Shown here one piece after another: positions 5,727 through 28,218 of a stretch of 30,245 nt of DNA. The translations under genes were made by a program, and so were the position numbers. This DNA is from a virus. A model generated the notes under the pieces. The model was not told where the DNA came from and did no database searches. It was given only the letters and a program-made list of their open reading frames with translations. Where the stretch lies: IMG/VR virus record IMGVR_UViG_3300035688_000051, positions 1-30,245 of that record; one strand, given 5' to 3'. Numbering within the stretch: the stretch's first letter is position 1; each line of letters opens with the position of its first letter.

Positions 5727-6343
5727 AGATCCGTGTTGCCCTTCATTATATGGCTTCCTCAGAGATAGCCGGGATGATCCCCGAAGAGACTATCCGCGAG
5801 ATTAAAAAGACTGACCCGGCACCCCTATTCCGGGCCTATGTCGTAGCGCATGAAGGCGAAGCGAAGGGGAACTTGGTCGGATATGGCAACATCGTCAAGA
5901 AATGGTATCGCGCCATCGTCGACAAGCTCCATGAGAAGATCGAAGCAGGGTTACAGCTCTTCCACGGACACGGGGCAACCAATGACCAGACGGGACGCAT
6001 CCCCATCGGGCGCGTAGTCGGCAAGGCACTCAAGGAAATAGCCGGACGTTGGTCATCCGTTGTGGCCTGCTATATCGAGCCTGCCAGCCGGCGACTGAAC
6101 CTCGATGTGGCATCCATCGAAGCCGAGATTGACCTCGATGTTGACGGTAAGGGGAACATTATCGCAAACGACGTCAATAACGTATCGGCTATCGCGCTTG
6201 GCAACTCAGAAATCGAGACGCCGGGATTCGCCGGGGCAACACTCCTCGGCCAACTCCAGGCGTTTGCCAAAGATAAGGGCATAAAGACAGAAGTCGGGCA
6301 TAAGATTCCCAGCGCAGAAGTTGGGCATCAAATACATCACTAA
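5723..6343 (+). CDS. Presumed prohead protease or capsid maturation protein, 206 aa
   Basis: The protein lies between portal and scaffold genes, the usual place of the maturation protease. It contains LFHGHGATNDQTGRIPIGRV at about 79-98, with a His pair that could include the catalytic His, and RWSSVVACYIEP with a Ser pair near 109-110. Later comes NNVSAIALGNSEIETPGF, reminiscent of the C-terminal segment of prohead proteases. The exact catalytic triad is not certain from inspection. It overlaps the upstream stop by four bases. Function rests mainly on position and partial motif likeness. Confidence 0.55.
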   Translation: MKIRVALHYMASSEIAGMIPEETIREIKKTDPAPLFRAYVVAHEGEAKGNLVGYGNIVKKWYRAIVDKLHEKIEAGLQLFHGHGATNDQTGRIPIGRVVGKALKEIAGRWSSVVACYIEPASRRLNLDVASIEAEIDLDVDGKGNIIANDVNNVSAIALGNSEIETPGFAGATLLGQLQAFAKDKGIKTEVGHKIPSAEVGHQIHH

Positions 6344-6383
6344 GCCGTCCCGGACAGCCAGGAGCGGAACAAAGGAGTCTCTA

Positions 6384-6965
6384 ATGGGAGATGTCGTAAC
6401 GATTGACCAGCTACGCGACCTGGTCAAAGCGGACAAGATCAAGCCGTCCGATATTTTCGGAGCGGAAGTTTTGGCCGATGACCCATCGGTCAAGGGGTTG
6501 ATCGAGACCGAGAATCGGCGCGCCGTTGCGGGCGAATATGCCCACAGGAAGCGCGGCGAGGAAGGTTTCGACAAGACGAAGGGAGAGCTGGAAAAACAGC
6601 TCGCCGACCTGAAAGCCGAGGCGAACATGCTTCGGATAACAGCGGCAACGGGCAAGGTCAGGCCGCTCTACGATGCACAGAAGGCAACGCGGAAACTCAC
6701 GGAGAAGCAGGCGACCTTCATCGAGGGGCGACTGGACAAGTTTAAGCCGATCAAACCCGAAGACGTTGAGAAGGAGTTCAATTTCTACCTGGACTCCGAG
6801 GTCGATGAGTACGGCAAGATTGCCAAGCTCATGGGGATTGAGGAAAAGGTTGCCGGAGGCGGCGACAAGGGGGGTGGAACCGGCCCGGAGAATCAATCGA
6901 CCGGCGATGCTGTCTTGAACAAATACCTTGATCCCGCGAAGAATCCCTTCATCAGACTCGCTTGA
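6384..6965 (+). CDS. Presumed scaffolding protein, 193 aa
   Basis: The start is ATG 6384 with AAAGGAG at 6371-6377 and a six-base spacer; an upstream in-frame TTG at 6321 would run through the ribosome site and the previous gene. The protein is highly charged and helical, with a coiled-coil stretch (DKTKGELEKQLADLKAEANM) near the middle, a glycine-rich linker (GGGDKGGGTGPENQ) and a short C-terminal anchor-like helix. This composition and its place just before the decoration and capsid genes fit an internal scaffold. No sequence family is certain. Confidence 0.65.
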   Translation: MGDVVTIDQLRDLVKADKIKPSDIFGAEVLADDPSVKGLIETENRRAVAGEYAHRKRGEEGFDKTKGELEKQLADLKAEANMLRITAATGKVRPLYDAQKATRKLTEKQATFIEGRLDKFKPIKPEDVEKEFNFYLDSEVDEYGKIAKLMGIEEKVAGGGDKGGGTGPENQSTGDAVLNKYLDPAKNPFIRLA

Positions 6966-7042: not shown

Positions 7043-7459
7043 ATGCCAAATGCACTGAGAACCGCCACGCCTATGGGTGATTGGCGGACATTCAAATTCA
7101 TCTGTGAGGATAGCCTCGGCCAGCACGGCATCAAAGATGCCCAGATCGCCGGGGACCCCTATCTTTACCTTGTCAACGACACCGTCGGTGCGCTTCTCGA
7201 AACAATCGCATTCGGTGAGGAAGGCGTCCTCATCTACCACGCCGAGAAGATCATGGTCATGAAGGATTCCGGCAAGGGCGAGTCATTTGATCCGGGGGAC
7301 AGGGTTTATTGGAATCCGACGACCCGGCTCGTTACGCCCGCCTATGATAGTGGTTATTTCTGGATTGGGATCGCAACCGAACCTGCCGGGGAAACCGACG
7401 ATTTCGTCGAAATTGACCTCAAGGGCGATCACGCCGAGGTTGAGGTAGTCCTTCCGTAA
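7043..7459 (+). CDS. Capsid decoration protein, DUF2190-like, 138 aa
   Basis: The C-terminal half carries GDRVYWNPTTRLVT, then WIGIATEPAGETDDFVEIDL, the pattern of the DUF2190 family that decorates or stabilises phage heads. An N-terminal extension of about 30 residues precedes the beta-rich core. It has one of the best ribosome sites in the window, AAAGGAGG at 7028-7035, as expected for an abundant virion protein. It lies 12 bases upstream of the major capsid gene, the normal order. Confidence in the family is good; the virion role is from the family. Confidence 0.8.
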   Translation: MPNALRTATPMGDWRTFKFICEDSLGQHGIKDAQIAGDPYLYLVNDTVGALLETIAFGEEGVLIYHAEKIMVMKDSGKGESFDPGDRVYWNPTTRLVTPAYDSGYFWIGIATEPAGETDDFVEIDLKGDHAEVEVVLP

Positions 7460-7471
7460 GGGGATACAATC

Positions 7472-8599
7472 ATGAACAGCAAAATCTTTAATCTCAACTG
7501 GGAAAAGTTCAATTACAAGGATCCCGAACAGCGGAAGAGCCTCGCGGGCGCGTTGCAGTATTTCTGCGCGCTTCCCAACAAGTATGTTGCGGATCGGTTC
7601 GCCAATGTCCAGGAGTTCGTCAAGGCTCACAAGCAGGTCCAGGAGTTCACCCTCATGTCCGACGGTTGGGTCAACGAGAAGGCCATCGACATCGTTCAGA
7701 AGTTCCACCTCATGACGGATTACGACAACGGCTATGAGCAGATCTTCGACATTCGGGATTATAGCGGCACTAAGGCGAGCGGCTTCGATATCGCGGCCGT
7801 CCGCTCGGGCCTCAAATTCCTTGAGGTCAAGCCGGGCGAGAAACTCAAAGTCTATCAGATGACCGGGGAAAAGGAGCGCGTGTTCTTCTGCTACTATGGT
7901 GGCGCGCTCGGCTGGCATCGTCAGCTCTTCGAGGACGGCGACTGGTGGACAATCGAGGACAACGCCATCGAGTTCCGGAACAAGGCATACAGTCACCGGG
8001 CAAGCGTCTATTATGCGCTTCTGGAAGCCGCGGCAACTGCCAAGGGTTGCTGTTCCGTCGTGGATGCCAATTGCCACGGCTGCGATGCGGATGCTGCGGA
8101 TATTGCGGCATCCATCAATTTCGCCGCAACGGATATCTTGACCAACGTGGCCAATCGCGGCTACGACATCAATCCTGCAACTACTCAATTCATCGTTCTG
8201 ACCCCGCTCCAACTCAGGGGCCGCGTGCGCTATGCCCTTAATCAGCGCATCCAAGCCTATACCGGCGCTGAACTTCGCATCGACTACAACTTCAAGCAGA
8301 TCACCTCAATGATGCTCACCCAAACCGACCGGATCATGGTCATCCTGCCCGGGCGGTCGCTCAAAATCGGCTACAGGATGGACCTCACCCTGTTCGACGA
8401 TTTCGACATCCTCAGCTATACCGACACGGTCGCCGGGTGGATGCGTCACGGTGGATGCATCGGCGACATCGACCAGATCAATTGCATCACGCTCACCGAG
8501 GAAAGCGGCTCATGCCCACCCCCCAGCTTCAACCCCTTGGTTGCTTGCGGGGAAGTTCCCACAGGCATAGGCCAAATGCAGCACGTAGAACCTCTTTAG
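7472..8599 (+). CDS. Major capsid protein (HK97-like fold expected)
   Basis: Length (375 aa), position after the scaffold and decoration genes, and composition fit the main shell protein. It carries an acidic central part with AAVRSGLKFLEVKPGEKL and a long alpha-beta C-terminal region with PLQLRGRVRYALNQRI and ITSMMLTQTDRIMVILPGR, as in peripheral-domain segments of HK97-fold capsids. A Cys cluster (KGCCSVVDANCHGCDADAA, about 190-208) and further cysteines near the C-terminus (SCPP, VAC) are unusual and might form crosslinks or bind metal. AAGGGG precedes the ATG. No cleavage site is obvious. Confidence 0.8.
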   Translation: MNSKIFNLNWEKFNYKDPEQRKSLAGALQYFCALPNKYVADRFANVQEFVKAHKQVQEFTLMSDGWVNEKAIDIVQKFHLMTDYDNGYEQIFDIRDYSGTKASGFDIAAVRSGLKFLEVKPGEKLKVYQMTGEKERVFFCYYGGALGWHRQLFEDGDWWTIEDNAIEFRNKAYSHRASVYYALLEAAATAKGCCSVVDANCHGCDADAADIAASINFAATDILTNVANRGYDINPATTQFIVLTPLQLRGRVRYALNQRIQAYTGAELRIDYNFKQITSMMLTQTDRIMVILPGRSLKIGYRMDLTLFDDFDILSYTDTVAGWMRHGGCIGDIDQINCITLTEESGSCPPPSFNPLVACGEVPTGIGQMQHVEPL

Positions 8600-8637: not shown

Positions 8638-8668
8638 GGGGCCGAGTCGTTCTAGGCGGCTCGGCCCC
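8638..8668 (+). other. Strong GC-rich inverted repeat before the glycan genes
   Basis: GGGGCCGAG (8638-8646) and CTCGGCCCC (8660-8668) are exact complements separated by 13 bases. There is no T tract. It sits between the capsid gene and the start I prefer for the next gene (8684), and may lower read-through or act on the transcript. Confidence 0.45.
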
Positions 8669-8683
8669 GGGCCGATATCTGAG

Positions 8684-9433
8684 ATGCTAACACAACGAAG
8701 TCCAGCGGCAGTACGGATCATGCGTGATCGGGATGCTATCCAAGCCAGAAACCGCGCTGATAGCGCACGGGCTATCAATCCTGATCGACCGGCGGCAGAC
8801 GTGTTGCCTGATGGCGCTTGGGCGGGCCAACCGTGCTTTATTATCGGCGGCGGACCATCACTCATAGGGTTCGACTTCGAGCGCTTGCGCGAGCGCGGGC
8901 ATGTAATTGCCATCAATAAAGCGTATCTATACGCGCCGTTTGCAGACGTGGTGTTCTTTATGGACCACGCGAGCTTCTATATGTACCTTAAGCGCGGCCA
9001 GTTCGGTGCAGACGCGCTAAAGGCATGGGACGAATTCAAGGGTCTCCGGGTGTTCCTAAACCTCCGGGGGCGTGATGTTAAGGATGCTTATTCCATCCGA
9101 AGTATTGGGCGAGTAGGACTTTCAACATCGTTGCGACATGGGCTTTATCACGGCAATAATTCAGGATTCGGGGCTATCGGCGTTGCCATCTGCATGGGAG
9201 CTGACCCGATTTACCTGTTGGGATACGATCTTCGGCATCAGGGCAAGGTGACGCATTTTCACGGTGGCTACGGGCGACATCAGCCTGAGGTCGTCATGCG
9301 GTCATACCTGAAAGGATTGACGGAGTTGGCGCAACTCGTTGCGAAGCGAGGGCGGCCTAGGATCGTCAATCTCAGTCAGTCCTCGGACTTGAGGGCTTTT
9401 CCATTTTCGACAATCGATGAGGTTTTGAAATGA
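8684..9433 (+). CDS. DUF115/GT42-like Rossmann glycosylation protein, 249 aa
   Basis: The core starts CFIIGGGPSL (51-60), followed by AINKAY (76-81) and FADVVFFMDHASFY (86-99). Later come NNSGFGAIGVAI (158-169), LLGYDLR (178-184) and THFHGGY (190-196). This order matches the DUF115/MptE-like and GT42 sialyltransferase-type fold that binds nucleotide-linked sugars. ATG 8684 is preferred over 8630 because the residues encoded before it are low-complexity Arg/Pro/Gly over a hairpin, and because the N-terminus from 8684 then matches two other enzymes in the block. The ribosome site is weak. The donor and acceptor are unknown. Confidence 0.7.
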   Translation: MLTQRSPAAVRIMRDRDAIQARNRADSARAINPDRPAADVLPDGAWAGQPCFIIGGGPSLIGFDFERLRERGHVIAINKAYLYAPFADVVFFMDHASFYMYLKRGQFGADALKAWDEFKGLRVFLNLRGRDVKDAYSIRSIGRVGLSTSLRHGLYHGNNSGFGAIGVAICMGADPIYLLGYDLRHQGKVTHFHGGYGRHQPEVVMRSYLKGLTELAQLVAKRGRPRIVNLSQSSDLRAFPFSTIDEVLK

Positions 9434-9597
9434 AAAGCGATAATCAGATTGAACGAGATGAACGTGACGTTGAGGATATGCGGAAAGACGACGCGCCCGT
9501 TGTCGTGGAAGCCCGTAGGGCCAAAAAGGGACGTGAGGTGAGGGATTGGGCGCACATCGCCAACATAATCGATCCTGGGGCACCTCAGGCCCAATGA
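9430..9597 (+). CDS. Small charged protein, 55 aa
   Basis: The ATG overlaps the previous stop by ATGA, and the frame stays open for 55 codons. The product is highly charged at the N-terminus (MKSDNQIERDERDVEDMRKD), basic in the middle, and ends DWAHIANIIDPGAPQAQ. I recognise no family. Coupled translation with the upstream glycosylation gene suggests an accessory or partner protein. The short length leaves some doubt that it is expressed. Confidence 0.5.
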   Translation: MKSDNQIERDERDVEDMRKDDAPVVVEARRAKKGREVRDWAHIANIIDPGAPQAQ

Positions 9598-9624
9598 TGG
9601 CGTTTTTGGGGACAATCAGCAATT

Positions 9625-11196
9625 ATGATTACTAGCCAGCATACTCGTTCCAGAGAAGCCGTACTTCGGCGACGGGAAACGCGAATTAATCGGCAGAATC
9701 GCGGCAGGACAGTTTCTCCCGCTCCCATATCTCATGTCGCACCCATGCCGGGCAATTCACTAATTACCTGTATTACGCCGACGGGAGATAGGCCACTGGC
9801 TTTTGCACTCTGCCGAAAGTGGATGCTTCATCAAACGGTGAAACCATCACAATGGATAGTCGTGGATGACGGCGAGAATCCGATGATTCCGACGGGCAAT
9901 TTCCAATATGTCCGTAGGGAACCACGGTCGGATGACCCGAAACATACACTTAACCGTAACCTGGCGACGGCGCTTCCGTTGATCACGGGCGATAAGATTT
10001 TTATCATCGAGGACGACGAATACTATGCGCCGGAATATATCGAGGAGATGTCCCGGCGGTTGGATCAACATGAGGTTGTCGGCCTTCGGGATTATAAATA
10101 TTACCACCTCCCGACGGGCGGGTATATCGTCAACGCGAATCACACACACGCGAATCTTGCGGAAACGGCTTTCAGGAATTCCTTTCTTTATGAAATGCGT
10201 GAAATTCTAAACGTCGCCGATACATTTATAGATTTGCGGATATGGCAAAAGATCGGCAGTAGAGGATATCGGTTTGACGATAGCGGTAAATCGTTATTCC
10301 TTGGGATCAAGGGATTGCCCGGTCGGGCCGGGATCGGTATCGGCCACAATCCGGCCATGTATCGAAACATCAAAGATACGGCCGACAGGGGGATGCTCAA
10401 GAAATTTGCACCGAAGGATTATCAGATTTATCTGGATATCCTGACCGGGAAGTTGACCAGTGAAAATTATCAATCATATTTCCCGGCCGATCTTCCCGTC
10501 ACCGGAATCACGGTTTGCTGGAATACGAAAGACTTGATCGAGCGGGCCTATAATTCGATTCGAAAGTTCTATCCCGAGATGCCGATCATCATCATCGACG
10601 GTTCGGATGCAGCCGATCCGTGTGCGGGTTACGTGCGCCGACTGGCATCCAACAAGACGACAGTCATCTCGCTCGGCTACAACATCGGGCACGGGCGCGG
10701 GATGTGCCTGGGCATCGAGAAGGCCAAGACACCGTATGCCCTCATTTTCGATTCCGACATCGAATTATTGAAGCCGTGTGTTCAGGACATGTTGGCCATG
10801 ATGGAAGAAGATACATTCGGCGTTGGGGATGTCGATGAAACGGCAAACCGAAGTCGCCATATCAACTGGACACGCAATCCCATTAATGGCTCGATACGAT
10901 ATCTTCAACCCTCTTTCCAATTGATTGATATAAGGAATTACAAGAAGTTTTATCCCTATGTTCATCATGGAGCGCCCTGTTATTTGACGATGCTCGATAT
11001 CCATCAACGCGGATTGTCCGGCAAGATCATCAAGGTATTTCCAGGCTTGGGCCACTTTACCGAGGGCGGAACCGTCCTAGATGAAGCGCCGGGAGAAAAT
11101 GTTCATCACTACAAGGCGGCGACTCGCCAGTTTCGCGCAAAGAAACACATGCCCGAAATAGAACGGGATTGGGTAGCAAACAACGGGAGGGTATGA
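9625..11196 (+). CDS. Two-domain glycosyltransferase, 523 aa
   Basis: Two glycosyltransferase-like (GT-A) parts are fused. The first begins NSLITCITPTGDRPLAF (44-60), with VVDDGE (79-84) and the DxD-like IIEDDEYY (127-134). The second begins PVTGITVCWNTKDLIERAYN (291-310), with IIIIDGSD (321-328) and the DxD motif FDSDIELL (375-382). Such enzymes transfer sugars from nucleotide donors with a divalent metal. The first 30 residues are an Arg-rich segment (RSREAVLRRRETRINRQNR) shared with neighbouring enzymes. No membrane segment is visible, so it should act in the cytoplasm. Sugar and acceptor cannot be told from sequence. Confidence 0.8.
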   Translation: MITSQHTRSREAVLRRRETRINRQNRGRTVSPAPISHVAPMPGNSLITCITPTGDRPLAFALCRKWMLHQTVKPSQWIVVDDGENPMIPTGNFQYVRREPRSDDPKHTLNRNLATALPLITGDKIFIIEDDEYYAPEYIEEMSRRLDQHEVVGLRDYKYYHLPTGGYIVNANHTHANLAETAFRNSFLYEMREILNVADTFIDLRIWQKIGSRGYRFDDSGKSLFLGIKGLPGRAGIGIGHNPAMYRNIKDTADRGMLKKFAPKDYQIYLDILTGKLTSENYQSYFPADLPVTGITVCWNTKDLIERAYNSIRKFYPEMPIIIIDGSDAADPCAGYVRRLASNKTTVISLGYNIGHGRGMCLGIEKAKTPYALIFDSDIELLKPCVQDMLAMMEEDTFGVGDVDETANRSRHINWTRNPINGSIRYLQPSFQLIDIRNYKKFYPYVHHGAPCYLTMLDIHQRGLSGKIIKVFPGLGHFTEGGTVLDEAPGENVHHYKAATRQFRAKKHMPEIERDWVANNGRV

Positions 11197-11211
11197 GGGG
11201 AGACAGTATCA

Positions 11212-11850
11212 ATGACGTTTAGGGAACGGTTTGAGGCGCTTGTAATTCCCGGGGATCGTTCAGGAAAAGCCATCGAGCAGAATCTTAACGAGTTTCTTTG
11301 TTTCCTTGAATTTGCATACGGCTATTTCGGGGCACGCGGGATTGAGCGACCGATTGTTGTAGAAATCGGCATCTCTAACGGTCGCCAGAAGAGTTTTTAT
11401 GAGACATTATTGAACGCTGAACATATCGGAATGGATATCGGACAGCACATCCGAATAGATCGGTCAAGTTCGCGCTCAGGGCCCGTCTATCCCCCGGACA
11501 TCCTGGGCGATTCCCATGTCCAGGCGACGGTTGAACTATTAAAATCGAGGCTTGCGGGTCGGATGATCGATCTTCTCTTTATCGATGGCGATCATACCTA
11601 TCAAGGTGTCGCCGTGGATTATGCGCTATACGCGCCATTGACGAAACACATAGTTGCGTTCCATGACATTTCAACGGAACGATGGAAGGGCAACGCGGTT
11701 ACCGAGACCTGTGAGGTTAAGCGTCTTTGGAGCGAACTCGTCATTCAGGAAAAAAAACATACGGTTATAGAAATCAGGAATTATAACGACATGATGCCTT
11801 TCGGACATCACCAGATGGGGATCGGACTTGTCGTCAAGGATGCGAAGTAA
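11212..11850 (+). CDS. SAM-dependent methyltransferase, CmcI/Methyltransf_24-like, 212 aa
   Basis: The class I methyltransferase core is visible: VVEIGISNG (49-57), GMDI (73-76), GDSH (99-102), LLFIDGDHTYQG (121-132), and FHDIS (150-154). The IDGDHTY segment is characteristic of the Methyltransf_24 and cephalosporin-hydroxylase-like group, often found in glycan gene clusters and in some cases metal-dependent. It probably methylates a sugar or sugar-linked group made by the surrounding transferases, which would change a surface glycan. GAGGGGAG just upstream of the ATG is a good ribosome site. The substrate is not shown. Confidence 0.8.
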   Translation: MTFRERFEALVIPGDRSGKAIEQNLNEFLCFLEFAYGYFGARGIERPIVVEIGISNGRQKSFYETLLNAEHIGMDIGQHIRIDRSSSRSGPVYPPDILGDSHVQATVELLKSRLAGRMIDLLFIDGDHTYQGVAVDYALYAPLTKHIVAFHDISTERWKGNAVTETCEVKRLWSELVIQEKKHTVIEIRNYNDMMPFGHHQMGIGLVVKDAK

Positions 11851-11852
11851 TC

Positions 11853-12794
11853 ATGATAACCAGCAGGGAAATACGTTCCAGGGAGGCATTGATTCAAAGA
11901 GGACGACGCATCGAGGATCGGAAAAACCGCAAAAATCATGTTTATCGTTCTCGGTTGGGACACGATGCGGCAAGGGAAAGCACGATCATGGAAGATTGGG
12001 CTAGGCTTGCCGGGAACATCACGAAGGCCGGAGTCCCTAAGATGGCCGCCATCGCGGACATTAAGTATGCGCCATATCCGGTATCGCCCTTTCCCGTAAA
12101 CGCGTGCATCCCGACAATCGGCCGGGAGACGGTGATCACGGTCATCGATGCGCTCTTGACATCAACGGCAACGAACCTGAACATCTTCGTTATCGTTCAA
12201 GACAATGACCAGATGGCCGAGAGATTGAAAAATCGATATGGAGAAAAAAAGAACGTCTTCATAGAATCGATTGCAACAAGGATCGGATGGGCCGCGGCGC
12301 AAAACCTCGTGGCGCAGCAACCAGGCGCGCTCTTCATGTTGGGCGACGATTCGGTTGTTACATGCGATACGGTCCGGACGCTTGAGATTGCGATGGCGAG
12401 GATTTTCCCTCACGGAGACGGGGTGGTCGTTCCCCTGGAAACCCAAACGCTCTGGGGGGTTGGGCCGATGCCCGGGTTCGGATTCGTCGGTTCATTTCCG
12501 TTTGTCGGCGACAATTTCCTGAATAGATTTCCGGAACGGCAGATTCTCTGCCCGGATTATTTCGCCCATAGTTCAGATGTGGAACTATTGGATTACGGAC
12601 TTTCGGTTAATCGGTATGTTCAATGTACCGAAGCGACGTTAGATCATTTTGTTTTTCGTCCGGAAGATCACGATCAAACGGCAATGATCATAAAATCCCT
12701 AGCGAACCGGGCCATTGAAATTTATGTGGAACGAAATCGAAAGGGTTATCTTTGGGGGCAGAACTTCCATCGGCTGGATGCATCAAAAAGGTGA
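11853..12794 (+). CDS. GT-A-type glycosyltransferase, 313 aa
   Basis: After an Arg-rich first 30 residues (RSREALIQRGRRIEDRKNR) and a linker of about 50 residues, the catalytic part starts NACIPTIGR (83-91). It has IVQDND (114-119) and the metal-binding-like MLGDDSVV (162-169), then a C-terminal part with aromatic residues (DHFVFRPEDHDQ). This is the layout of a family 2-like enzyme. The gene starts two bases after the methyltransferase stop and runs into the next transferase. It probably adds one sugar in the pathway; donor and acceptor are unknown. Confidence 0.75.
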   Translation: MITSREIRSREALIQRGRRIEDRKNRKNHVYRSRLGHDAARESTIMEDWARLAGNITKAGVPKMAAIADIKYAPYPVSPFPVNACIPTIGRETVITVIDALLTSTATNLNIFVIVQDNDQMAERLKNRYGEKKNVFIESIATRIGWAAAQNLVAQQPGALFMLGDDSVVTCDTVRTLEIAMARIFPHGDGVVVPLETQTLWGVGPMPGFGFVGSFPFVGDNFLNRFPERQILCPDYFAHSSDVELLDYGLSVNRYVQCTEATLDHFVFRPEDHDQTAMIIKSLANRAIEIYVERNRKGYLWGQNFHRLDASKR

Positions 12795-13534
12795 AATTAT
12801 CCGTAATCTCGCGCTGGTATAACGAGGTAATGCTTGCCCCGTTATTTCTAAGCCACTATGCTTTTGCCGACGAGATTATAATCCTTTTGGATGAAGCGAC
12901 AAACGACGGTACGGCGGAGATTATCGCCGAATATCCGAACGCCCATATTAGGAGATATCGGCTTCCCGACAAGATTAACTATGGATTTACCACGGCCCTC
13001 GTGACGCGGGCCGCAGCCACGATAGACGGTGACTGGATCATGGCGCCCGATACGGATGAGTTTATCTTTCCCGCCGGGAACGGAGACGTGCGAACGGCAT
13101 TAAGTCAGGCGAACGGCAATCTGATTTATTCCGACATGTGGACGGTTTATCGGCATAAAACGGACAAAGATCTCGATTCATCTTGGCCGGTCATTCGGCA
13201 GAGGCGACACGGTGATCCGAATAAGACGATCGGATGGAACAGCCTATACCGAAAACCGATTATTGTGAAATCGGGGCTTGGCATTGATTGGTGGCCCGGA
13301 TTTCATCGCTATCGCGCCAACCCCAAAATAAGGGTTTCGAGTACGCGGCTCGTTGGGGCACATTGGATTATGGCCGATGTTGATTTGGCTATAGCGCGAC
13401 GATTGAGGGGGCGGCGAGAATTACAAAGCAAGGAAAACCTACGCTATAACTGGGGATTTCACAATTTTGACATTACCGAGGCAAGGATACGGGCAGAATG
13501 TAAAGCGCACGAAAATGATCCGGAATTATTCTGA
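12791..13534 (+). CDS. Family 2-like glycosyltransferase, 247 aa
   Basis: The product begins KLSVISRWYNEVMLAPLFLS (2-21), the usual first strand and NE motif of the family, followed by DEATNDGTAEI (34-44) and the DxD region DWIMAPDTDEFI (81-92). GTG 12791 is chosen because it overlaps the previous stop by GTGA and places the first strand at the N-terminus. An alternative TTG at 12752 has a better spaced AAAGGG (12740-12745) and would add 13 residues. Unlike its neighbours it lacks the Arg-rich N-terminal segment. Resembles sugar transferases with LpsA-like or RgpF-like short forms; exact role unknown. Confidence 0.7.
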   Translation: MKLSVISRWYNEVMLAPLFLSHYAFADEIIILLDEATNDGTAEIIAEYPNAHIRRYRLPDKINYGFTTALVTRAAATIDGDWIMAPDTDEFIFPAGNGDVRTALSQANGNLIYSDMWTVYRHKTDKDLDSSWPVIRQRRHGDPNKTIGWNSLYRKPIIVKSGLGIDWWPGFHRYRANPKIRVSSTRLVGAHWIMADVDLAIARRLRGRRELQSKENLRYNWGFHNFDITEARIRAECKAHENDPELF

Positions 13535-14066
13535 GCGGATATCACAATCACCCCAGGTTCCGGAGGCGAAGAAATGCCCGGAGATAAAACAATTTCCCTA
13601 TGGCATTGTCAGTCCGGCCATGATCCCGGAGGTTGCCGACAATATTCTCGATGAATATTTTAGCATAACCGGACAACTTGGCATCAAGGCATGCCTAGCG
13701 CTTGGCTTATGTCTGGGGTTCGTTAGAGATGGCGCATACCCCAACGGCGACAATGACCTGGATGTAATCGCTATTGTCAATCAGCAAGAGCGAATCGCCT
13801 TAACGGATGCCATGATCGGCAAGGGCTATATGCAGGGGCATTATTTTCCAGAGAAAGAGAATGCCCATTTTGTTAAGAGTCGGATATTGGTGGACATTTA
13901 TTTCCGAACGGCAGTAGGGTTCTATGCCGAACTGGGTAATGTGAATTACAAGGGGAAACCGTATCCCGTACCGCTACAATTCGACAAGTATCTGACCGCC
14001 TGTTATTCCAATTGGCGGATTCCGGAAGATCAGGGAGCCGGGGATATTCTGGCGAAGGGGCTTTAG
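13515..14066 (+). CDS. LicD-like nucleotidyltransferase-fold protein, 183 aa
   Basis: LicD/fukutin-family proteins carry a G-x-C-L-G-x-x-R then D-x-D motif. Here GLCLGFVRDG lies at 64-73, GDNDLDV at 78-84, and a third acidic site in ILVDIYF (D127). LicD enzymes move phosphorylcholine or related groups from CDP-linked donors to glycans, so this may add such a group to the phage-directed glycan. ATG 13515 is a moderate choice; an upstream TTG at 13467 is in frame and would overlap the previous gene by 68 bases. The N-terminal 50 residues are not part of the recognisable fold. Confidence 0.65.
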   Translation: MIRNYSERISQSPQVPEAKKCPEIKQFPYGIVSPAMIPEVADNILDEYFSITGQLGIKACLALGLCLGFVRDGAYPNGDNDLDVIAIVNQQERIALTDAMIGKGYMQGHYFPEKENAHFVKSRILVDIYFRTAVGFYAELGNVNYKGKPYPVPLQFDKYLTACYSNWRIPEDQGAGDILAKGL

Positions 14067-14384
14067 GTGATCGTTAATGGACATTATATGACGGGCGGCG
14101 GGAAGGCACACCTCTCGAACGCCGTGCATGAATCGATTTTCGGTTGTCCGATGTTCGGGACGTTCAATGTACGAACGATAAAGGATATCAAGACGCTCAC
14201 GCCGACACTCATGAATCAGAAGACCGGATGCCGATATTACCACGTCAGGATTGACGGTCAATATGATGCCTGGGCATGGCGGCGGCAGAAGAGTTTTATG
14301 ACGGGAACGAAATGGGAGTTGATCAGCAAGGAATTGCTGCCGGATATATTGAAACATAAAACCATAACAATGGAAATAACATGA
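14067..14384 (+). CDS. Unknown protein, possible CTP-dependent riboflavin kinase-like fold, 105 aa
   Basis: GTG 14067 has GAAGGGG at 14054-14060 with a six-base spacer; ATG 14088 is an alternative. The segment FGCPMFGTFNVRT (25-37) resembles the G-x-P-x-x-G-T-x-N-V core of archaeal-type CTP-dependent riboflavin kinases, and GCRYYHVRIDGQYDAWAWR (54-72) could be a following sheet. The match is short, and the protein is smaller than the usual family length. It ends by overlapping the collagen-like gene (ATGA). It may be a sugar-related enzyme or a diverged kinase fold; I am not sure of either. Confidence 0.5.
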   Translation: MIVNGHYMTGGGKAHLSNAVHESIFGCPMFGTFNVRTIKDIKTLTPTLMNQKTGCRYYHVRIDGQYDAWAWRRQKSFMTGTKWELISKELLPDILKHKTITMEIT

Positions 14385-15721
14385 AACGCGAAGCTCGGGT
14401 CATTTTCAAAGTACCTTGGTGGATGGACAATTTTCTTGCCAAAATTAACAAGGGCGAAGTCTATGCGAAGGGCGACAAAGGCGATCCCGGTGGCATTGGG
14501 GACAAAGGTCCGACCGGAGATAAGGGGCCGGTGGGAGATGTAGGCAATAAGGGAATTGCGGGGGACAAGGGTCTTGCTGGCGATAAGGGATTAACCGGGA
14601 ATGCGGGGGAAACCGGCCCGTCTGGGAACAAGGGGCCAACCGGAGATAAGGGCTTAACGGGAGATCGAGGCGTCCAGGGTCTCCGGGGCATTGCCGGAGA
14701 TAAGGGTCCATCGGGTGATCAGGGGTCTATCGGTAATCAGGGACCAGTTGGGGATAAGGGGCCAAGCGGTGATAAAGGATTGACCGGGGACACAGGGGCG
14801 AATGGCTCTCCCGGTATTCAAGGTTCGCCTGGTGATAAGGGCGTAGTAGGCGATAAGGGGTTGAGCGGAGATCAGGGACCAGTTGGCAATCAGGGAAACC
14901 CCGGAATTACAGGGGACAAGGGCCTAGCTGGAGATACTGGAAATAAGGGTGCGACTGGCGACCAGTGTTCCATCGGTAATCAGGGTTCTCCGGGCGCAAC
15001 TGGCGATAAGGGGGCAACGGGTGACCAGGGAATTCCAGGAAATCAAGGAAGTCCGGGGGCCACGGGTGATCCGGGGGCTACCGGAGACAAGGGCATAGAA
15101 GGGGATAAAGGTACGACGGGCGATAAGGGCGTTACGGGAGACAAGGGGCCAGCCGGTGATCCTGGTGCCGGATTAGACCTTCATAACTATCGTCATTATG
15201 GAGTTACAACCTACGAGGCCTGGTTTACCTCTCCACGTTCAGGAACGGCACTGGCCGGATCGGCTCTTACGGCGAACCGGATGTATGCCATGCCGTTCAT
15301 TTGTCCAAAGGCCATCACGCTTGATCAGATCGGCGTTTACGTTTCGACACTTAGCACGACCACGGCACGCCTCGGCATTTATTCCGATAATGGAAACTGT
15401 TATCCCGGAAACAAGCTTCTGGATGCCGGAACGATTGACGTGACCGCGACGGGCGCGAAGAAAATTGCAATCAATCAGGCACTCGCGGCCAACACACTCT
15501 ATTGGCTGGTCATCGTATGCGCAGCTACGCCAGCGATTTATTGTATCCCGGTTGCGGGAGTTATCAATGTCCTCGGGACATCAAACGCGCTCGGCACGGC
15601 ACAGAACGCAGGCCTATATGTATCACAGACCTACGGGGCGCTTCCAGGAACCTTCCCGGCCTCGCCGACGATGATTACGGCGGCTCCAATCCCGGCAATA
15701 TTCTTAAGATTAAGTGCATGA
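14381..15721 (+). CDS. Collagen-like fibre protein with beta-sandwich C-terminal domain, 446 aa
   Basis: After a 30-residue N-terminus (possible virion anchor, VPWWMDNFLAKINKGEVYAK) come 78 consecutive Gly-X-Y triplets (31-264), rich in GDK, GAT and GPS. A 180-residue C-terminal domain follows with ITLDQIGVYVSTL and ARLGIYSD, likely a beta-sandwich that could bind carbohydrate and seed trimers. Collagen-like stalks of this kind form triple helices in phage fibres. Only one glycine is replaced, by Cys196 (codon TGT at 14966). The gene ends the glycan block and is followed by the head-tail connector. Whether it sits on the head or tail is not shown. Confidence 0.85.
   Translation: MKREARVIFKVPWWMDNFLAKINKGEVYAKGDKGDPGGIGDKGPTGDKGPVGDVGNKGIAGDKGLAGDKGLTGNAGETGPSGNKGPTGDKGLTGDRGVQGLRGIAGDKGPSGDQGSIGNQGPVGDKGPSGDKGLTGDTGANGSPGIQGSPGDKGVVGDKGLSGDQGPVGNQGNPGITGDKGLAGDTGNKGATGDQCSIGNQGSPGATGDKGATGDQGIPGNQGSPGATGDPGATGDKGIEGDKGTTGDKGVTGDKGPAGDPGAGLDLHNYRHYGVTTYEAWFTSPRSGTALAGSALTANRMYAMPFICPKAITLDQIGVYVSTLSTTTARLGIYSDNGNCYPGNKLLDAGTIDVTATGAKKIAINQALAANTLYWLVIVCAATPAIYCIPVAGVINVLGTSNALGTAQNAGLYVSQTYGALPGTFPASPTMITAAPIPAIFLRLSA
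14471..15172 (+). repeat. Gly-X-Y repeat tract, 78 triplets
   Basis: Nine-base units encode Gly-X-Y without a break in spacing across 234 residues. GDK occurs 17 times, often alternating with other triplets. The only glycine position lost is residue 196, within GDQCSIGNQG, while the near-identical GDQGSIGNQG at residues 112-121 keeps it. Confidence 0.95.
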
Positions 15722-15731
15722 GGAGGCTAAC

Positions 15732-16205
15732 ATGTCAATAGGATGGTTTGCAGACCTGGCCGATGCCGAGGATTATTTTATCAACGAGCGTTTGGAGACG
15801 GAATGCTGGGACGATCTCCTGGAATCGACGCTCCACCAGGAGACGAAGGCTGTCGTCAATGCCTATAACCGGATTTTCTACGACACTCGCTGGGATCTCC
15901 CGACCTATATCACCGCGACTGCGGCTGAACTCACCATACTCCGTATCGTCAACGCGGAGATGGCTTATTACCTGGCCTGTCACATGTCCGACGAGGATCG
16001 ACGCAAGGGCATCCAGGCGCAAGGGGTTATCAAGGCAGGCATAGTCAAGGAAGATTACTCCGAGGCCATGTTGATGGCATTGCCTGTCCCGCCGGTTGTG
16101 GCAGCCATGCTTACTCCCTGGCTTGTTGGCACCTCGTTTATCAGCACGGCAAACCTGAGCCGTGACGAAGAGGAATCCGTTAAAACCAAGGTGAGCAATT
16201 TCTAG
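15732..16205 (+). CDS. Head-tail connector-like protein (DnaT-like/gp6 type), 157 aa
   Basis: ATG 15732 has AGGAGG at 15721-15726 with a good spacer; an in-frame ATG at 15714 lies before the ribosome site. The N-terminal DLADAEDYFINERLETECWD followed by helix NAYNRIFYDTRW resembles the helical connector family that attaches below the portal. It begins the head-completion and tail block after the glycan genes. The C-terminal hydrophobic segment PVPPVVAAMLTPWLVG is uncommon in this family. Identification rests on pattern and position. Confidence 0.65.
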   Translation: MSIGWFADLADAEDYFINERLETECWDDLLESTLHQETKAVVNAYNRIFYDTRWDLPTYITATAAELTILRIVNAEMAYYLACHMSDEDRRKGIQAQGVIKAGIVKEDYSEAMLMALPVPPVVAAMLTPWLVGTSFISTANLSRDEEESVKTKVSNF

Positions 16206-25890: not shown

Positions 25891-28218
25891 ATGAGCATCG
25901 GGGAAAAATTCGCAACAAAGAACGAGGTGGAAGTTCTGCGGCGCAAGCTACAGTTGGCCCTTAACGGGGCGACCATCGTCCAGATAGAGGCGGAAGAAAT
26001 CGGGGTGACAAACTTCACTGATTTGGCCGACGTTCCGTCGTCATACGCGGCGACCGGGAACTTCGCGGTGCGGGTCAATAGTACGGTTGATGCGCTGGAG
26101 TTTGCCGAGCTGAAGGGCACGACGAACCAGGTCACGGTGACGGCCAACGCCGCCGACTATACGCTATCACTTCCGCAGGATATCCACACCGGAGCATCGC
26201 CGACGTTCGTGACGGCCAAACTGTCGGCCTTAACCGATGGTTATGTTCCCTATCATGTGAGCGACGCGGTGGGGTTGGCGAATAGTCCGGTGTTCACCGA
26301 TGGGATATCCATCGTTACGATCCGCAACCTGACGGATGCCGTGGTCGACCCTATCTATCAGGTCGCCGTCGGAGCCACACCCGTCGTCAAATGGACATGG
26401 GGACTGGACGATAGCGATGCCGATAAATGGAAGCTCGCCAACAATACTGCACTGGGCACGGGTCCAACGGGTGATTTGTTTTTTGGCGATATCCTTTATT
26501 ATACGCATGAAGCCAACAATGGGATTGTCGGCGTGGAATTGGAAGATTTTGTAACGGATGATATTTATATCGTTGGGGGTTTTGGTTCTGGCGATGGCCA
26601 ATTCGATCACGGTAGACAAATTGCCTATGACGGGATGTATCTTTATGCTGTCGATGGGCAAAATGACCGGGTACAAAAGTTTCTGGCGGCAAGCGGAACA
26701 TTTGTCTCGCATACCATCGACAATCTAAGCCTACCCTGGGGATGTGCTTACTGGAATGGATTTATATATGTTTCTTGCGGAACGGGGGCATATACCGGAA
26801 CCATCAGAAAGTTTGATGCCGCGACAATGTTATTCCAATCCGCCTTTGGTTCCAATGGTACAGGAGACAATAATTTCAGCGTACCTCGTTCATTGACTAC
26901 GGATGGAACGTGGCTTTATATCTGTGATACCGGTAATTACAGGGTGAAAAAGCATACCCTGGCTGGAGTGTATGTTGATCAAGTCGGCTCATCCGGTACC
27001 GACGACGGGGAATTTGGCATTTCCATGAGTGGCATAGCAACGAACGGCACTTATCTATACGTTGGCGACTATGGTAATCACAGGGTTCAGATTTTTAATT
27101 GTTCCGATCTTTCTTTCGTTGCCAAGGTCAATATGCCCAACCGAACCGGATCGCCGGGAAGTCCTGCATCTATCACGCTCAATGGAACGCATTGGTATGT
27201 TGGCGTAAATGATGGTGCGCCTTTTGCGGGTTATCATATCAAGTATGATATCGCCACAAACACTTTCCAGGCTTATTACGATTGCTCTGTCGCGGCTGGA
27301 AATGACCCTTTGAGCATTTATGGTTCTATCATCTTCAAAGAATATACGGACAAGGTTATTCATGGTGACTTGATTGTCGTTCACGTGGACGGATCGTTTA
27401 TTGACATATATCCCAAGGCGAGATTTCTTGATTCCATAAGACTCTATGAGAGTGCGGACCTTGCCGGAGAATATGTCGGCATCGAGGCTCCGACCGACGT
27501 GACATTAAGTTATAATCTGGTCTTACCCCCGACGGTAAATACGGTAAAAACGCATTTATATGCAGATGTTGGCGGTATCCTCGATTGGGGCCAGAATGTT
27601 GATAGCGATGGATCGCCGGAATTTGGGGGGGTGACGCTGACGGCGTTTTCCGGAATCTTGGTGGCGACCGCTGGCGTTGTCTCTGATGATGCGGAACTTG
27701 CCGATCTTGCCGATGTTACCTTCCCGTCCGGCGAACCAGACATAGGTGATGTCTTAACTTATGAAAGTGGCGGTTGGACATCGATGCCTCCGGCCGGTGG
27801 AGCGGCGGCATTTCTCGATCTGACCGACGTTACCGAGGTCGATTATGCGGGTCATGCGGCAGAGTTCGTCGTCGTGAATGGTGCCGAAAATGGACTTGAG
27901 TTTTCGGCCTCTTCTGTCGCCGGACACGATATCCTTAGCGTCAACCATACGGACGTAAATACAGCCGCACCGGATGATCAGGATGTTCTCACGTGGGACG
28001 CGGGAGCAGGGGAGTGGTTAGCGCAAAAACTCCCCGCCGCAGGGCCGCATGATTTGGAAAGCCATACCGATGTCTTTTTCTTATCGGGCGAACCTATCGT
28101 GGGCGATGTTCTGACCTATGAAAGTGGGGGATGGACAGCTGTGCCGCCGATCAATATTACGATCTCCGATTCCGCCGCATCGGGCGGTAGTAATGGGGAT
28201 ATCTGGTTGGAATACTAA
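25891..28218 (+). CDS. Tail fibre with NHL-type beta-propeller, 775 aa
   Basis: The N-terminal part (residues 1-220) has FTDLADVPSSYAATGNFAVR, a common fibre module. From about 225 to 505 come repeated YDGMYLYAVDGQNDRVQKF and NGTYLYVGDYGNHRVQIF blocks, the pattern of NHL propeller blades; I count about five or six. The C-terminal part returns to fibre modules, including two SGEP-type repeats. NHL domains bind proteins or glycans, so this may be the receptor-binding part. The propeller is visibly lower in GC than the flanks, suggesting an acquired domain. Start ATG 25891 follows the previous stop closely. Confidence 0.75.
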   Translation: MSIGEKFATKNEVEVLRRKLQLALNGATIVQIEAEEIGVTNFTDLADVPSSYAATGNFAVRVNSTVDALEFAELKGTTNQVTVTANAADYTLSLPQDIHTGASPTFVTAKLSALTDGYVPYHVSDAVGLANSPVFTDGISIVTIRNLTDAVVDPIYQVAVGATPVVKWTWGLDDSDADKWKLANNTALGTGPTGDLFFGDILYYTHEANNGIVGVELEDFVTDDIYIVGGFGSGDGQFDHGRQIAYDGMYLYAVDGQNDRVQKFLAASGTFVSHTIDNLSLPWGCAYWNGFIYVSCGTGAYTGTIRKFDAATMLFQSAFGSNGTGDNNFSVPRSLTTDGTWLYICDTGNYRVKKHTLAGVYVDQVGSSGTDDGEFGISMSGIATNGTYLYVGDYGNHRVQIFNCSDLSFVAKVNMPNRTGSPGSPASITLNGTHWYVGVNDGAPFAGYHIKYDIATNTFQAYYDCSVAAGNDPLSIYGSIIFKEYTDKVIHGDLIVVHVDGSFIDIYPKARFLDSIRLYESADLAGEYVGIEAPTDVTLSYNLVLPPTVNTVKTHLYADVGGILDWGQNVDSDGSPEFGGVTLTAFSGILVATAGVVSDDAELADLADVTFPSGEPDIGDVLTYESGGWTSMPPAGGAAAFLDLTDVTEVDYAGHAAEFVVVNGAENGLEFSASSVAGHDILSVNHTDVNTAAPDDQDVLTWDAGAGEWLAQKLPAAGPHDLESHTDVFFLSGEPIVGDVLTYESGGWTAVPPINITISDSAASGGSNGDIWLEY
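27727..27780 (+). repeat. Fibre repeat module, copy 1
   Basis: Encodes SGEPDIGDVLTYESGGWT (residues 613-630). The same 18-residue block with two substitutions is encoded at 28084-28137, with many synonymous base differences, so it is conserved at the protein level. Confidence 0.8.
28084..28137 (+). repeat. Fibre repeat module, copy 2
   Basis: Encodes SGEPIVGDVLTYESGGWT (residues 732-749), matching copy 1 at 16 of 18 residues. It sits near the C-terminus of the same fibre and probably forms part of a trimeric shaft or tip. Confidence 0.8.

Follow-up and report, generated by a model that had tools for sequence, protein, structure and literature searches.

The window analysed here is a 30,245-base record of an uncultured virus (IMG/VR record IMGVR_UViG_3300035688_000051), which carries the late genes of a siphovirus-like phage. 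Its genes run in the order terminase, portal, cement, major capsid protein (MCP), G1 to G8, collagen-like fibre, neck genes (from 15714, including a minor head protein and the tail terminator), tape measure and tail genes. The subject of this work is G1–G8, eight open reading frames (ORFs) at 8684-14384 that are all encoded on the + strand and joined by overlaps or short gaps (Table 1). An initial annotation, made from the sequence alone, had read them as an apparent single unit for building and modifying a glycan, possibly one attached to a virion protein, placed between the capsid gene and a head-tail connector. All eight ORFs were found at about the coordinates claimed, but the capsid gene and the connector are separated by nine genes rather than eight, with the collagen-like fibre gene intervening; the connector marks a boundary that is conserved in relatives, while its identity comes from a weak profile match. 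The shared strand, the tight packing and the location in the head module of every relative examined bear out the view of a single unit, and the glycosyltransferase, methyltransferase and LicD-like families recovered by profile, PDB and structure searches agree with the encoded glycan building and modification. The block is a real, conserved and functional glycan island linked to the capsid gene.

A search with the capsid protein gave 73 homologous viral loci (denoted by L numbers), and the 58 loci with at least 1 kb past the capsid gene were counted; these include the window, a 100%-identical twin contig, two contigs from metagenome-assembled genomes (MAGs) and a few near-duplicates. A G1 homologue is the next gene after the MCP gene in 58 of the 58. 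Relatives without the block had been named at the outset as evidence that would speak against it, and none of these loci lacks it. Where the far side is visible, the gap between MCP and connector is 2.8–9.6 kb long and is filled by variable glycan genes, which encode many methyltransferases, GT2 and other glycosyltransferases, NAD-dependent epimerases, radical S-adenosylmethionine (SAM) proteins, sulfotransferases, a PIG-L deacetylase and cupins, with approximately 97% of the island coding length on the head-gene strand. By sequence, the islands encode phage glycosyltransferases that are linked to virion genes. The mean MCP identity among the members is 49%, indicating that the capsid-island arrangement is old. 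The closest capsid among isolates is 27% identical, and neither G3 nor G8 was found in isolated phages by our searches. L111 and L112, contigs of relatives, fall by binning into two Aminicenantes MAGs, and this binning alone hints, weakly, at the host phylum. Apparent Sec signal peptides, unusual among virion genes, were seen at the neck-side end of some islands (L090:14036-17098, L096:11358-13372, L054:16632-17429 and L049:12034-12804), and some of these proteins carry PKD or Ig-like domains.

G1 had been called DUF115/GT42-like, and our searches support the call. It matches phrog_4603 'alpha-2,3-sialyltransferase' (E 1.5e-26), and the best PDB matches of a ten-member G1 profile are the Campylobacter GT42 sialyltransferases CstII and CstI, with collinear stretches and motifs. 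The AlphaFold model of G1 (predicted local distance difference test, pLDDT, 91) returned CstII (1ro8) as the top Foldseek match (E 1.7e-4, probability 1.00, TM-score 0.45), followed by an archaeal MptE-type HPPK and human ST6GALNAC2. The predicted GT42-like fold is accompanied by a GGGPSL-type nucleotide motif, and the motifs HFHxGY and NPxS are conserved. On the basis of the PHROG match, the CstII and CstI profile matches and the Foldseek ranking of the model, we place G1 in the GT42/DUF115/MptE fold group, as a remote relative of its other members.

The remaining genes were characterized in the same way. The small charged protein G2, 55 aa long, received no family assignment in our searches. 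G3, annotated as a two-domain glycosyltransferase, has its PF00535 match on the C half, and its halves are encoded as separate ORFs in L066, L069 and L075. Two further transferases had been claimed, which correspond to G5 and G6. G5 alone has no Pfam match, but 7 of the 12 members of its family match PF00535, and the family profile matches heparosan and chondroitin synthases and other GT-A structures with E-values to 7.5e-8; G6 was recognized by PF13704, and its homologues begin at the same residue as its GTG start. A GT2 profile match together with a DD/DxD motif is present in G3, G5 and G6. G4, expected to be a CmcI-like methyltransferase, is a methyltransferase by its above-cut-off Pfam score, but no CmcI-specific match was obtained. 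The LicD-like call for G7 draws on a Pfam LicD score of 18.6 bits in the window, below the cut-off of 22.6, and of 31.1 bits (E 3e-7) for the homologue in L103; a search of G7 against the PDB gave nothing meaningful. The L103 homologue is followed by a cytidylyltransferase gene, which fits CDP-alcohol chemistry, as would be expected. G8, listed as an uncertain kinase-like protein, matched nothing in PDB or Pfam by sequence, and sequence-profile comparison alone was not significant. Its AlphaFold2 model (pLDDT 86), however, has MJ0056/RbkR CTP-dependent riboflavin kinases as all six top Foldseek matches (probability 1.00), and a GTxN motif is conserved. According to the model, G8 has the fold of the archaeal CTP-dependent riboflavin kinase MJ0056, with a putative kinase activity, in good agreement with the earlier kinase-like call. 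In L067:16680-17579, a riboflavin-kinase-like domain of the G8 type is fused to a SAM methyltransferase.

G1 and the genes behind it have different histories. Pairwise identity of G1 correlates with that of MCP (r 0.69), as does that of the portal, cement, protease/scaffold-region and connector proteins (0.72–0.82). The corresponding values are 0.26 for G3 and -0.18 for G6, and G3 versus G6 gives 0.79. In L111, MCP, G1 and the connector are 84%, 88% and 76% identical to those of the window and G2 is kept, with G3–G8 replaced by different genes, and in L105 MCP is just 38% identical, yet G3 and G6 are 64% and 75% identical. In the comparison with L120, dS is 0.22–0.66 for G4–G8 versus 1.0–2.5 for the adjacent connector and minor head genes. 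The identity correlations, these two loci and the dS contrast indicate, at the level of sequence, that G1 is inherited with the capsid and head genes, whereas those downstream of it move from phage to phage. G1-G3 fusions are found in L087, L098, L103, L106 and L108. All eight genes have dN/dS values of 0.05–0.29 against close relatives, indicating purifying selection on each of them, and these values together with the positional conservation make the block more than a product of chance.

A segment of approximately 25 residues, 'MIT[TS]-x-x-x-R-x-[RV]-x-x-[IL]-...-R', is common to the N-termini of G1, G3 and G5 (8684-8761, 9625-9702 and 11853-11930 in the window; L111:10948-11103), whose catalytic domains are unrelated or just remotely related. 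A hidden Markov model (HMM) of this tag, applied to 2,816 ORFs, matched 32 G1 and nine other island proteins, some of which had been seeds of the profile, and gave no match outside the islands among these ORFs and none in reversed sequences. The HMM with these two controls replaced a first regular expression, which was dropped as too crude. Two copies of the tag are present in four proteins (L111, L087, L106 and L108). The tag, which is helical in the AlphaFold model of G1, is the most novel element of the island. It is conceivable, though rather doubtful, that it makes the island a plug-in platform, where a short docking tag recruits any enzyme carrying it to the assembling head and swaps of tagged enzymes behind a fixed GT42-like starter change the surface glycotype.

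Directly 3' of the MCP gene, a GC-rich hairpin with a stem of at least 9 bp and at least 6 G-C pairs was found in 50 of 59 relatives. The hairpin sequences are very diverse and the position is conserved; as a control, the regions 3' of eight other genes were examined at 14–74 sites per gene and gave 0–4 qualifying hairpins each. A T run follows in 23 of the 50, resembling an intrinsic terminator; the hairpin of the window has no T run. The post-capsid hairpin is probably an attenuator or an mRNA 3' stabiliser, which would allow high capsid expression and lower expression of the enzymes.

Membrane carriers, flippases, polymerases and oligosaccharyltransferases were not seen among the 363 island proteins, and neither was a membrane-embedded flippase, polymerase or Gtr protein of the GtrABC or Wzx-Wzy kind. 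In a hydropathy scan, one of the 363 had at least two predicted transmembrane helices, and it is not an enzyme; this supports the earlier remark that no membrane enzymes or lipid-carrier genes are seen in the block. Because membrane glycan-export enzymes are apparently absent, soluble sequential transfer to protein in the cytoplasm would be the simplest reading, by analogy with known systems. We favor, with a probability of roughly two-thirds (0.66), a capsid-linked glycosylation island in which virion protein is glycosylated in the cytoplasm without a carrier, beginning with G1 and most likely on MCP. G1 is proposed as the first transferase, most likely acting on MCP, because it is universal, adjoins the MCP gene and is co-inherited with the head. 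The island would be transcribed late with the head genes, at a level below that of the capsid owing to the post-capsid hairpin. Soluble G1 would put the first sugar directly on the virion protein, which is most likely MCP, with the cement protein and the collagen-like fibre as possible alternatives. The glycan would be extended by G3, G5 and G6 and methylated by G4, and G7, perhaps with G8, may add a phospho-substituent by CTP-derived chemistry, while the tag may dock G1, G3 and G5 onto a common substrate or onto one another. With G1 staying with the capsid gene, exchange of the genes behind it would change the surface glycan. The acceptor, the order of steps, the donors, the functions of tag and hairpin and the biological benefit are the parts of this model that we infer.

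Several observations weigh against capsid glycosylation by G1. The likeness of G1 to GT42 enzymes is distant, as its TM-score indicates, and the MptE pterin kinases belong to the same fold family. G1 is co-inherited with MCP no more closely than with the portal or further head genes, and MCP is not singled out in this way; since G1 follows MCP, portal, cement and connector to about the same degree, we rejected co-inheritance as a means to name the acceptor. In CcrColossus, a phage of Caulobacter, it is a giant tail protein rather than the capsid that adjoins the G1 homologue and the glycan genes, raising the possibility that the acceptor varies between phage groups or is a tail or fibre protein. 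The main alternative to MCP would be the variable fibre-like protein at the island end, which is collagen-like here and has PKD or other repeats elsewhere. The collagen gene overlaps G8, its counterpart in L048 has glycan genes on either side and is followed by a GT2-methyltransferase fusion, 10 of the 55 Y positions in the longest collagen repeat run of the window are Thr, and collagens of bacteria and giant viruses are commonly glycosylated. We nevertheless regard a fibre acceptor as unlikely, given that collagen was recognized in only two arrangements (the window type and L048) while G1 is universal, that D3-type phages carry a G1 homologue and no collagen gene in that region, and that the repeat chemistry differs, with Lys and Thr at the Y positions in the window and Gln in L048. 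Glycosylation of the hydroxylysine type was rejected for the same Lys-rich versus Gln-rich difference and because no lysyl hydroxylase was seen. A literature search on phage glycosylation of collagen-like fibres found nothing direct.

The target of the island could instead be a surface glycan of the host, O-antigen or capsule, remodelled to exclude superinfection or to release progeny, with the head-gene site just tolerating insertions. Phage GT2 genes are often GtrB-like seroconversion genes, and G6 marginally matches a GtrB-like PHROG (E 0.075); LicD-type enzymes, too, normally decorate surface polymers. The GtrA/Gtr membrane partners, flippases and polymerases of such a system were not seen among the island proteins, and the late-operon position, the invariable presence after MCP and the inheritance of G1 with the head genes also make remodelling of the host improbable. 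The likeness of G8 to a vitamin kinase and the use of glycosyltransferases on DNA bases by phages would suit enzymes that make a modified nucleotide, a DNA modification or a soluble metabolite unrelated to virion glycans. This is very improbable: neither the window nor the island inventory showed any base-hypermodification enzymes, the members belong to typical glycan-cluster families (GT2, epimerase, sulfotransferase, PIG-L and methyltransferases), and the linkage to the capsid gene is tight.

To our knowledge, glycosylated phage particles have been demonstrated in a few cases only. Freeman et al. reportedly described virion glycosylation in the mycobacteriophages Che8, Corndog and Myrna in 2023, in which transferases encoded by the phages themselves are reported to attach glycans to capsid or tail proteins (PMC12363180, PMC11256854). 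The islands resemble this system in that the glycosyltransferases are phage-encoded and that covalent glycosylation of capsid or tail proteins is proposed. Maravista, closely related to Che8, has its transferases near the 3' end of the genome, whereas here a multi-enzyme, exchanged island anchored by a GT42-like gene directly follows the capsid gene, and searches with G1 and G3 returned no mycobacteriophage. The principle of virion glycosylation is already familiar from a small number of mycobacterial phages, but it is not known in the form of a fixed, exchangeable module linked to the capsid.

In Pseudomonas phage D3 (orf6.5/orf7, orf13) and its relatives PMG1, PP9W2 and IME307, a member of the G1 family occupies the slot between the capsid gene and the connector, and a methyltransferase gene lies close by. 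These phages differ in having no multi-glycosyltransferase island in the slot, and their G1 homologue is approximately 26% identical and of putative function. In D3 (L045) this homologue is continuous over 5813-6409, where the record has two overlapping ORFs (orf6.5 and orf7), and the annotation looks mis-framed. In CcrColossus (gp126-gp131), the genes after the G1-family member carry the annotations sugar transferase, methyltransferase and GT9, but this is a jumbo phage with the tail-protein context noted above. Flagellin glycosylation islands (Maf, FlmG) likewise act in the cytoplasm and without a carrier on a surface protein that self-assembles, as is proposed here. Caulobacter FlmG is a cytoplasmic protein O-glycosyltransferase with a separate N-terminal domain that binds the flagellin acceptors (PMC7591256), a domain that may be a functional parallel for the island tag. 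FlmG is a GT-B enzyme with a TPR domain, in contrast to the GT42-like and GT2 enzymes of the islands with their short helical tag and proposed virion-protein acceptor. CstII and MJ0056 match the folds of G1 and G8, respectively, and their sequence relationship is distant.

A whole uncultured lineage thus locks a glycan island to the capsid gene yet varies its contents, much as bacteria do at their loci for O-antigen or flagellin glycosylation. If our reading is correct, the surface chemistry of phages would evolve rapidly, which would affect their adsorption and their persistence in the environment. The islands would then be a source of soluble, tagged enzymes that glycosylate proteins without a lipid carrier, and a GT42-like gene and a hairpin after the capsid gene would be a signature by which further glycosylated phages could be recognized. 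In the D3 family, an isolated relative is available for tests.

Table 1. Features of the capsid-linked island and its flanks in the window.
Feature	Position	Strand	Evidence and remarks
Head cement/decoration protein	7043..7459	+	PF09956 Phage_cement_2 E 8e-7; phrog_122 head decoration; candidate acceptor
MCP	7472..8599	+	phrog_24071 E 2e-24; PF25209 Phage_capsid_4 E 0.0033; island anchor, leading candidate acceptor
GC-rich hairpin, MCP-island gap	8638..8668	+	14 bp, 10 G-C pairs, 3-nt loop; fold z -3.0
G1, GT42/DUF115-like transferase, N-terminal helical tag	8684..9433	+	profile, PDB and structure searches; after MCP in 58/58 loci
G2, 55-aa charged protein	9430..9597	+	homologues in L003, L004, L111; dN/dS 0.19
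G3, tag and two GT-A/GT2 domains	9625..11196	+	PF00535 E 1e-19; halves separate or G1-fused in relatives
G4, SAM-dependent methyltransferase	11212..11850	+	PF13578 Methyltransf_24, 30.0 bits vs cut-off 26.3
G5, tag, ~50-aa linker and GT-A glycosyltransferase	11853..12794	+	family Pfam matches, profile vs structures
G6, GT2-type glycosyltransferase	12791..13534	+	PF13704 E 4e-8; GTG start at 12791
G7, LicD-like phosphotransferase	13515..14066	+	PF04991 E 0.0021; ATG at 13515
G8, CTP-dependent riboflavin-kinase-like domain, conserved GTFN motif	14067..14384	+	AlphaFold2 model and Foldseek
Collagen-like fibre protein	14381..15721	+	PF01391 E 5e-37; phrog_5073 tail fibre E 5e-60; alternative candidate acceptor
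Neck gene closing island, probable head-tail connector	15714..16205	+	phrog_477 Ad1 E 0.057 (weak); boundary conserved in relatives

Elsewhere in the window, a YopX-family protein (PF09643) is encoded at 921-1334, upstream of the terminase genes, and a tail-region protein with an NHL repeat match is encoded at 25891-28218.

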